From a virus: a stretch of DNA of 30,470 nt. Numbering within the stretch: the first letter of the stretch is position 1; every line of letters begins with the position of its first letter. Shown one piece after another: positions 28,935 through 30,470 of this stretch. The notes below the pieces were generated by a model. It was not told where the DNA came from, made no database searches, and saw only the letters and a list, made by a program, of their open reading frames with translations. The DNA lies in the IMG/VR virus record IMGVR_UViG_3300047557_001379, positions 1 to 30,470 of that record; one strand, given 5' to 3'. The translations under genes were made by a program, and so were the position numbers.

Positions 28935-29102
28935 ATGAAAGAACAAACTCTAGGACTTATTAGGCACGCTCTCACCTTTGTGGGTGGTATTATCGTGGCT
29001 AAGGGCCTCGTAGACGAAAGCTTAATCCAAGAAGTCACTGGCGCTGCCATGACTATCTTAGGTGCTGTTTGGTCTATCCTATCTAAGAAAAAAAGTGCCT
29101 AA
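28935..29102 (+). CDS. Small holin, Pam3-gp28-like, 55 aa
   Basis: This is the only clear plus-strand gene. The 55 residues (start MKEQTLGLIRHALT, end SILSKKKSA) hold two hydrophobic segments, about 9-25 (LIRHALTFVGGIIVAKG) and 32-49 (EVTGAAMTILGAVWSIL), separated by a short polar turn with Asp/Glu. A Lys-rich C-terminus follows. This is the layout of the Pam3-gp28-type putative holins, which form the membrane hole for lysis. No lysin gene is next to it in the window. It is followed at once by a strong terminator, so it is a monocistronic unit. Confidence 0.8.
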   Translation: MKEQTLGLIRHALTFVGGIIVAKGLVDESLIQEVTGAAMTILGAVWSILSKKKSA

Positions 29103-29124
29103 TTCCCGCCTACCCTTAACTAAG

Positions 29125-29149
29125 AAGCAGACTTCGGTCTGCTTTTTTT
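29125..29149 (+). terminator. UUCG-loop rho-independent terminator after the holin gene
   Basis: A perfect 8-base-pair stem (AAGCAGAC/GTCTGCTT) with a TTCG tetraloop is followed by a run of T (29143-29149). It lies 22 bases after the holin stop. It is a textbook intrinsic terminator for plus-strand transcription. Confidence 0.9.
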
Positions 29150-29155
29150 ATGTCT

Positions 29156-29218: not shown

Positions 29219-29276
29219 CGATTTATGCAATAAATGCTTATCCCAATCAACCTTTTATAGACTCACTGTGCTCAGG

Positions 29277-29434
29277 CTGTCAGGGGAGGATTCGAACCCC
29301 CATGCTGCGATTCAGTATTTGGCAAACTAAGCCGGCTTTGTGGTCAACCCATACCTAAATACCTATCTCGTTATTCAGCGCCCACGAGACGAGTGGGTGT
29401 GTCTGCCATACCAAAGGCATTTCACCACCTGACA
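29277..29434 (-). tRNA. Aberrant Leu-class tRNA-like RNA with 63-base insertion in the variable arm
   Basis: The ends pair as a perfect 7-base acceptor stem (TGTCAGG/CCTGACA). The T-arm is canonical (TTCGAAT loop, stem with one G-U). After the D-stem (GTG/CAC) the text TGGTGAAAT ... TGGCAGACAC fits Leu tRNAs except for about 10 extra bases in the D-loop. A perfect 5-base anticodon stem (CCCAC/GTGGG) holds the loop TCGTCTC, which has C instead of U at position 33 and GUC in the anticodon position, not a Leu anticodon. The variable arm GCTG/CAGC closes around about 68 bases. A 6-base direct repeat, CTGAAT (29373-29378 and 29310-29315), sits 63 bases apart within it. CCA is not encoded. It is either a degenerate tRNA, a tRNA with an intron-like insertion or a specialised tRNA-like RNA. 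Confidence 0.6.
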
Positions 29435-29439
29435 ATTGA

Positions 29440-29667
29440 TTAAAAGATCTTACTACTCCTACGCTTTGCTTCTTCAGCTTCTTTCAAAAGACGGATCCAA
29501 GTTATACTAGCATCCACAGCAGCAAGCAATGGAGCAAAAGGGAGAATGAATAATGTCTCAAGTCCCGGTGTAGGTCCAATTGGACTGTTACCATAGTGGT
29601 GCTTATAGCTAACACTCATTCTCCAAATACAATACGCAATGCTTACAATGTAAATATACCAAATCAT
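29440..29667 (-). CDS. Small membrane protein, 75 aa
   Basis: Residues 1-18 (MIWYIYIVSIAYCIW) and about 37-53 (ETLFILPFAPLLAAVDA) are hydrophobic enough to span a membrane. A basic C-terminus (EEAKRRSSKIF) follows. It ends five bases before the tRNA-like RNA and may share its transcript. TAAATTTG, a match to the Bacteroidota -7 box, lies directly upstream of the ATG, but no good -33 box is visible. The function is unknown; a lysis or membrane role is conceivable. Confidence 0.6.
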   Translation of the reverse strand: MIWYIYIVSIAYCIWRMSVSYKHHYGNSPIGPTPGLETLFILPFAPLLAAVDASITWIRLLKEAEEAKRRSSKIF

Positions 29668-29714: not shown

Positions 29715-30010
29715 CTTAAAATTGATGGGAGTAACGATTACCCACAATCCCTGGACGGACCCCTTTTCACCCACTATCCACAAAGATGATCAGTCTAAGT
29801 GTTAGAGATAGGTTGGATTGTATACCAACAACGCCTGCGGAGATCGTCTTGATTTTCTTCAGCGTATCGCATTGCACCCTAGATTGGCCAATCTGAAATG
29901 TTGCGTGGTTTTAACTCATCCGTCTGTGATACCCAACTCAATAGCTTTTCAACTATCTCGCCAGTGCCTTAGTCCCTCTCAAGGACTTATTCGGCCACAT
30001 TTTTATTATG
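29715..30010 (-). other. Structured noncoding stretch after the homing endonuclease
   Basis: These 296 bases hold no credible reading frame on either strand and look richer in G+C than the coding neighbours. They contain several inverted repeats: AGATTGGCCAATCT at 29881-29894 is a perfect palindrome, and GTTGG/CCAAC and GTCC/GGAC small hairpins lie nearby. They lie between the homing endonuclease stop and a strong terminator. An intron 3' part or a phage small RNA fits best, but I could not line up the P7 elements of a group I intron. Confidence 0.35.
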
Positions 30011-30470
30011 TTAAAGAACTCTTCCTCTATACCAACCTTCCGGTATTTCAGATTTTGTTTTTTTGTTTTCGCTGCCATTGGTAATCCAGAAGCTACCATA
30101 CTGTGAGTTTGTCTCTCCTATACCTTTATCCTTCTTCACTTGCTTCATTTTCTCTATCGTTTCAGGTTTGTGCTTTTTACCATTCCAATCATAAAATAGA
30201 CCTTTTTTCAGCACTCCAGTTTCGTACAATTTCTTGTTTCTCTCAGATGCTTTTTTTCCAAAAGCCTTTTTAAAATCGAAATCTTTCATTTTTTCTAAAA
30301 ACCTCTTCTTAGCACTTGGAGGAAATCCACCAATTCCACCAACCTTGAGATTCATGCACTCTTTGCTAGCCACCTCTTTCATTGTAACTAACTGCGACTC
30401 TCTCAAAGCTAATTCCTCTCTCGAACTAAAAAATTCTAGTATTTCGAATTTGTGATTTTCGATACCATGT
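30011..30470 (-). CDS. Homing endonuclease, C-terminal part (5' end beyond window)
   Basis: The frame is open to the window edge, so it lacks its N-terminus. The visible part begins H-G-I-E-N-H-K-F-E-I-L-E-F-F, then 'SREELALRESQLV' and 'CMNLKVGGIGGFP' (the C-terminal block of GIY-YIG-type phage endonucleases). It continues with a NUMOD3-like 'NGKKHKPETIEKMK' and 'NSQYGSFWITNG...IPEGWYRGR'. This combination is typical of Seg/Mob-like phage homing endonucleases that spread by cutting related phage genomes. The catalytic GIY-YIG residues would lie outside the window. It may be free-standing or intron-encoded; the following noncoding stretch supports the second. Confidence 0.85.
   Translation of the reverse strand, partial: HGIENHKFEILEFFSSREELALRESQLVTMKEVASKECMNLKVGGIGGFPPSAKKRFLEKMKDFDFKKAFGKKASERNKKLYETGVLKKGLFYDWNGKKHKPETIEKMKQVKKDKGIGETNSQYGSFWITNGSENKKTKSEIPEGWYRGRVL

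Follow-up and report, generated by a model that had tools for sequence, protein, structure and literature searches.

The Bacillus cereus pseudo-tRNA tRNAOther is tRNA-like but unused in translation, and a regulatory role has been proposed for it (PMC3399842). The phage RNAs ROOL and GOLLD, which are often found near tRNA islands, self-associate by loop-loop contacts (PMC12286853). For tRNA-Asp, the strong aspartate determinants are G73, G34, U35, C36 and C38, and a G1-C72 pair is strictly conserved in bacteria (PMC9976931). Here we analyse a 30,470-nucleotide stretch of viral DNA (IMG/VR record IMGVR_UViG_3300047557_001379; the window) and show that it holds one copy of a conserved RNA family, which combines the tRNA L-fold with a structured insert in the variable arm and has a phage and a chromosomal branch. 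This family of tRNA-shaped RNAs, found in Bacteroidota phages and some Bacteroidota chromosomes, is apparently undescribed: we found no published account of it in open-licence papers, and one may exist elsewhere.

The element is a tRNA-like RNA of 158 nt on the minus strand (window 29277-29434) with a complete cloverleaf and a long structured insert (Table 1). RNA position n corresponds to window coordinate 29435-n. A preliminary description of the locus, based on its letters, had identified base-paired acceptor (TGTCAGG/CCTGACA), D, anticodon and T stems and a paired variable-arm base, and all of these pair as claimed; in the window copy the D stem is GTG/CAC and the variable-arm base GCTG/CAGC. 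The description was also right that the anticodon loop lacks U33 and shows GUC. The loop, UCGUCUC at 29386-29392, has C33, GUC at 34-36, U37 and C38. The MFE fold of the window copy is the cloverleaf, with z = -1.86, a value at which folding energy alone is weak evidence of structure.

Neither ARAGORN nor Rfam detected the element in the window, and at a relaxed Rfam threshold no tRNA or other credible match appeared at the window element or at the chromosomal copies described below. A BLAST search of 50,697 phage records with the window and with three homologous copies returned no homolog; all matches were short and due to chance or to the T arm. The anticodon loop and the insert core were also compared with E. 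coli rRNA, and their complementarity to it was weak or no better than that of shuffles.

Table 1 Coordinates and supporting observations for the tRNA-like RNA, its conserved neighbour and the scaffold elements seen alongside.
Feature	Position	Strand	Observation
Whole tRNA-like RNA	29276..29434	-	158 nt plus conserved C74 at 29276; covariance model R1, 165.9 bits (R1 was built from 43 rows, the window among them); homologs in 85 viral contigs
Acceptor stem, 5' strand UGUCAGG	29428..29434	-	Helix 1: compensatory change in 6/7 pairs, 100% paired
Acceptor stem, 3' strand CCUGACA (29278-29284), and discriminator G73 (29277)	29277..29284	-	
D arm	29399..29425	-	A14, G18G19 and A21 of the tRNA core kept (invariant alignment columns); U8 just before the arm
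D-loop hairpin AUGCC-UUU-GGUAU	29408..29420	-	Site is a palindrome of varying sequence in most phage copies
Anticodon arm CCCAC-UCGUCUC-GUGGG	29381..29397	-	Stem covaries
Variable arm and long structured insert, three helices	29304..29379	-	Helices 4-6: compensatory changes in 3/4, 2/3 and 7/10 pairs
Conserved insert core GGGUUGACCAC	29340..29350	-	U[UA]GACCAC within 70 nt 3' in 64/67 contigs found by the anticodon-arm 16-mer alone
Palindromic insert hairpin AAGCCGGCUU	29329..29338	-	Palindrome of at least 8 in 24/25 distinct segments
T arm GGGGG-TTCGAAT-CCTCC, loop UUCGAAU	29285..29301	-	Helix 7: compensatory change in 4/5 pairs, 100% paired
75-aa ORF, probable small membrane protein	29440..29667	-	Ends about 9 nt upstream of the RNA
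Scaffold elements (other contigs)	L105:4016-5100, L100:602-1030, L062:1223-1510, L129:5807-6244, L031:11934-12275		About 140 other loci

A pattern drawn from the acceptor and D arm led to one viral contig, L001, whose copy has the insert too, its loops unchanged and its stems different. A 20-mer pattern of the insert core found 49 contigs and a 16-mer pattern of the anticodon arm 67, giving a union of 85 viral contigs with copies of about 150 to 173 nt; a broad pattern scan lacked specificity, most of the contigs it returned being unrelated. The two independent patterns converge, the anticodon loop being present in 49/49 contigs found by the core and the core lying within 70 nt in 64/67 of those found by the arm, where chance would give such co-occurrence in about 0.2% each. 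Model R1, run over 20 whole contigs of up to 287 kb, found exactly one high-scoring copy in each.

Covariation was assessed on 43 representatives with less than 90% identity to each other. RNAalifold gave 37 consensus pairs, 25 of them with compensatory changes. On the consensus structure 98.9% of cells are paired, and the covariation score of 0.451 (0.159 in shuffled alignments) was reached by none of 500 shuffles; slid structures fared far worse than the consensus. Every helix contributes covariation, the three insert helices included, and the invariant positions of the 43-row alignment include the tRNA core (U8, A14, G18G19, A21 and T-loop UUCRA). The RNA structure is under selection, and the comparative evidence confirms that the observation as a whole is real, far beyond chance.

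A decaying gene, one of the readings offered earlier, would here be a decaying or interrupted tRNA-Leu gene, which would fit the Leu-like D and variable arms and the failure of ARAGORN to detect the element. Decay is ruled out by the relatives, which have the insert too, with compensatory changes, found in every helix, and not a normal tRNA with random decay; the single copies in the 20 phage contigs and the existence of chromosomal relatives likewise refute it, and we give this origin practically no credence.

The insert is not a passive addition to the loop of the variable arm: it contains three covarying helices and a core, G-R-UUGACCAC, that is nearly invariant, and RUUGACCAC is common to nearly all phage copies. 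The CTGAAT repeats said to bound it are indeed present (29373-29378 and 29310-29315, minus strand, 63 bases apart), but as a direct repeat they are coincidental, since the left copy varies in relatives (e.g. GCAGAGT, GGGATAA) and it is the right side, YRAAUC, that is conserved. These observations bear on the idea that the segment between the repeats is spliced or excised to give a 95-base tRNA. Removing 63 bases does leave a regular variable arm, in the window copy alone, but the left repeat is not conserved, parts of the insert are among the most conserved stretches of the RNA, a 95-base product would have an anticodon loop with neither U33 nor purine 37, and short chromosomal copies without the core exist as genes of their own. 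We consider excision very improbable; like decay, it was rejected on conservation and covariation. Among the alternative long-range stems put forward for the element, CTCGT/ACGAG is lost in relatives such as L001 and ACCCA/TGGGT shows no covariation, while TGGT/ACCA is nearly invariant and so outside the reach of covariation.

A covariance search, which the preliminary description had called for, extended the family to chromosomes. R1, a model of the phage copies, matched 40/395 Bacteroidota genomes at 65-102 bits, with 1-4 matches per genome, often in tandem; the exact insert core had given no match in the genome collection before the covariance model found these relatives. A second model, R2, built from 29 chromosomal copies, scores chromosomal copies at 92-123 bits and all other matches, which are of ordinary class II tRNA length, at 68 bits or less. 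In 200 genomes of another phylum no relative was found (best score 64 bits). ARAGORN and Rfam miss the chromosomal copies too.

The chromosomal copies, 111-194 nt long, retain UGU/ACA and G73, and their D loop has no hairpin. The GACCAC core is kept in many of the longer copies. Their alignment is 93.6% paired with compensatory changes in 23/37 pairs, values that lean towards R1 since the alignment was fitted to the R1 structure. In a tree of the core columns, a branch with 100/100 support separates the phage from the chromosomal copies. In 18 of 20 chromosomal loci, picked from the matches and not at random, a gene for an Lrp/AsnC-type regulator is divergent from the RNA and 122-213 bp away; other neighbours differ.

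A tally of 64 phage copies is unusable for positions 33-37, because the regular expression behind it required CGUCU in the loop; the unbiased phage set for the loop is that of the 49 contigs to which the insert core alone had led. In this set GUC and U37 each occur in 49, C33 in 48, C38 in 38 and A38 in 11, in agreement with sequences read directly, and the loops are UCGUCUC (37), UCGUCUA (9), CCGUCUA (2) and UUGUCUC (1). The 29 chromosomal copies have C38 throughout, GUC in 27 (CUC in the other two), U33 in 23 and a purine at 37 in only 3. Of the 64 phage copies 63 have G73, as do all 29 chromosomal ones; U1-A72 is universal among the 93 copies and G2-C71 nearly so. U8 and A14 occur in all copies tallied, and G10 in only 10/29 chromosomal ones.

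The L-fold core of elongator tRNAs (U8, A14, G18G19, T-loop UUCRA) is thus present, but the U33 and purine 37 that elongators require in a 7-nt loop are missing from phage copies (C33 in 48/49, U37 in 49/49). Decoding appears unlikely because phage copies are without U33 and purine 37 is almost always absent; the case is less clear-cut for the chromosomal copies, with U33 in 23/29. A tRNA-Leu has an A73 discriminator and a leucine anticodon, whereas the element has G73 and GUC. The identity set of aspartyl-tRNA synthetase (AspRS), G34, U35, C36, C38 and G73, is present in the window and most copies, with U1-A72 in 93/93 copies instead of the G1-C72 pair of tRNA-Asp. The earlier suggestion of a decoy tRNA therefore comes close to the best explanation as far as a non-decoding mimic or decoy is concerned, and departs from it in the enzyme: AspRS (GUC, C38, G73) is a likelier recogniser than LeuRS, given a discriminator of G73 rather than A73.

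Since GUC, C38 and G73 are kept while positions 33 and 37 depart from the decoding consensus, we tentatively propose a non-decoding aspartyl-tRNA mimic that is recognised by AspRS, cut from tRNA transcripts and able to dimerise, an explanation that we hold, taken whole, as possible though doubtful. AspRS would bind and perhaps charge the RNA through G34-U35-C36-C38-G73. With U33 missing (in phage copies) and purine 37 missing, the ribosome would not decode with it, and the RNA might act on AspRS, or on factors that use Asp-tRNA, as a decoy or as a regulator. Several observations count against such a mimic: U1-A72 is universal where tRNA-Asp has G1-C72, A38 occurs in 11/49 phage contigs and CUC in two chromosomal copies, chromosomal copies have G10 in only 10/29 and U33 in 23/29, and the combination of G73 and a long variable arm fits SerRS as well.

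The last point leads to a different partner. The same family could conceivably provide an L-shaped inhibitor or decoy for SerRS, EF-Tu, the ribosome or a host tRNA-targeting nuclease, a possibility that we likewise put forward with reserve. It is consistent with the tRNA core kept in all copies, with G73 and the long variable arm in the case of SerRS, and with the phage tRNA clusters; the nearly invariant phage anticodon loop could bait an anticodon nuclease. However, the joint conservation of GUC, C38 and G73 is more specific than such partners need, and nuclease bait leaves the chromosomal copies beside the Lrp/AsnC-type gene unexplained.

Dimerisation of the proposed AspRS mimic is suggested by two hairpins, one in the D loop and one near the insert tip, that differ from copy to copy and mostly stay self-complementary in phages. 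The roughly 10 extra D-loop bases noted earlier are present and fold into a hairpin whose counterparts in most phage copies have other sequences. Palindromes of at least 8 occur in 26/47 distinct D-loop segments (shuffled mean 2.0, maximum 7) and in 24/25 distinct insert segments (shuffled mean 1.1, maximum 5); the background rate is 4% of 16-nt windows in the same loci. The insert-core pattern fixed GCCGGC, and the unbiased evidence for the insert hairpin comes from the other palindromes, found through the anticodon-arm pattern, such as GCUUGCAAGC, GCUCGAGC, GCUAGCUAGC, UAGCGCGCUA and CGCCGGCG. For isolated palindromic segments, which do not represent the whole RNA, a duplex (-8 to -23 kcal/mol) is favoured over a hairpin (0 to -4 kcal/mol).

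Palindromes that change yet persist suggest self-association in most rather than all phage copies; in most phages, two or more copies would pair through the D-loop and insert hairpins. The window is itself an exception in its D-loop hairpin, which has a non-palindromic loop, while its insert hairpin, AAGCCGGCUU, is palindromic. This exception counts against dimerisation, as do the absence of the D-loop hairpin from L121 and the L124 type and the derivation of the energies from isolated segments.

The two loop sites, with sequences that change yet mostly stay self-complementary, would also fit a self-assembling structural RNA like ROOL and GOLLD, in which the tRNA part serves processing and stability, and the tRNA-cluster location is common to these RNAs (PMC12286853). 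The RNA is, however, much smaller than ROOL or GOLLD, such a role would leave the conserved anticodon loop unexplained, and chromosomal relatives without the D-loop hairpin make self-assembly improbable as the shared function. We regard this alternative as rather unlikely.

In the phages, a tRNA on the same strand lies within 200 nt in 35/84 loci, often 3-10 nt away, and this proximity makes tRNA-type processing of the phage RNA likely. The proposed AspRS mimic would be transcribed with the neighbouring tRNA genes and trimmed by RNase P and RNase Z, and CCA would be added as for tRNA. The 75-aa ORF has homologs in 42 loci, often at -9, and none was seen in L015, L109, L119 and L124; it is a conserved neighbour, not a required one. 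Genes for tmRNA lie near the tRNA-like RNA in 34 loci (L055, L064, L067, L082 and 30 more), with predicted tags such as DEMSTMTFDDLMAFVGADYALAA or ANEYALAA. In one lineage (L104, L106, L119) the terminase has relatives in crAss-like phages and in Flavobacterium phages. Since most other contigs have no match to this family of terminases, the RNA is probably present in more than one phage lineage.

The window has further features around the element. A partial homing endonuclease gene (PHROG 314; 30011-30469, minus strand) lies just upstream of the RNA, and Rfam detected no group I intron between the two. A sub-threshold match to manA RNA (29802-30017, minus strand; 19.9 bits against a gathering score of 55.2, E 0.011) adjoins a sugar-nucleotide gene cluster and is probably due to chance. 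At 29100-29150, 3' of a 55-aa plus-strand ORF (28935-29102), a GC-rich hairpin followed by a T run is likely a terminator between convergent transcripts. A long run of minus-strand genes (4757-26498) matches nucleotide-sugar epimerase, aminotransferase and glycosyltransferase, which suggests phage-encoded glycan synthesis.

Other tRNA-like elements were seen alongside. Scaffold elements have near-constant Leu-like tRNA ends, AGTCAGGTGGCGGAATTGGTAGACGC ... ACAGGTTCGAATCCTGTCCTGACT, around completely different middles; there are 216 distinct ones, with 175 sequence clusters of the middle and up to 7 per locus. They were found through their ends, so that the end conservation is partly a product of selection by the search, and a few are ordinary tRNAs with those ends. 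They are possibly a tRNA scaffold with variable RNA cargo. In the cultured jumbo phage Tenacibaculum phage pT24 (L371:3278-4235), tRNAs are annotated 'Undet' or 'Sup', and two near-identical 79-nt tRNAs of this phage may be odd tRNA-like RNAs too.

Under the AspRS reading, the phage RNA would imitate a host chromosomal RNA encoded beside the Lrp/AsnC-type regulator. A wider version, which we offer as speculation and think improbable as it stands, would make these RNAs a new class of aminoacyl-tRNA mimics that do not decode, present in part of a bacterial phylum and in its phages. In the bacteria, the RNA would be coupled to the regulator and would sense or use aspartyl-RNA outside translation, and the phages' self-assembling version would hijack or block that pathway. 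The family in any case adds a structured RNA absent from Rfam and invisible to ARAGORN, whose chromosomal branch occurs in roughly a tenth of the sampled Bacteroidota and whose phage branch has one copy per contig searched whole. It offers a natural case of a tRNA fold kept under selection, apparently without decoding, and a specific, testable prediction, AspRS recognition through GUC, C38 and G73. Its changing palindromes are a rare comparative signal for RNA-RNA self-association.

Like tRNAOther, with which it is compared by description, the family is a tRNA-like element that probably stands outside translation; tRNAOther lies within longer transcripts beside a genomic island, and no structured insert or palindromic loops have been reported for it (PMC3399842). 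With tmRNA (SsrA), whose phage genes lie in the same clusters, it has in common a large insertion combined with an acceptor and a T arm like those of tRNA. However, tmRNA is about 355-445 nt in the examined loci and has a tag reading frame and no anticodon stem, while the family RNA has a full cloverleaf with a covarying anticodon stem, and ARAGORN finds no tmRNA at the element. It shares the tRNA-cluster location of ROOL and GOLLD, and we infer its self-association from palindromic loops; ROOL and GOLLD are several times larger and without a tRNA fold, and their Rfam models gave no match to the element. Among ordinary tRNAs, the L-fold core is common to all, GUC, C38 and G73 are as in tRNA-Asp, and the long variable arm is as in tRNA-Leu and tRNA-Ser. 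The family differs from these in being without U33 in phages and almost never having purine 37, in U1-A72, in its length of 111-194 nt and in an insert with a conserved core.
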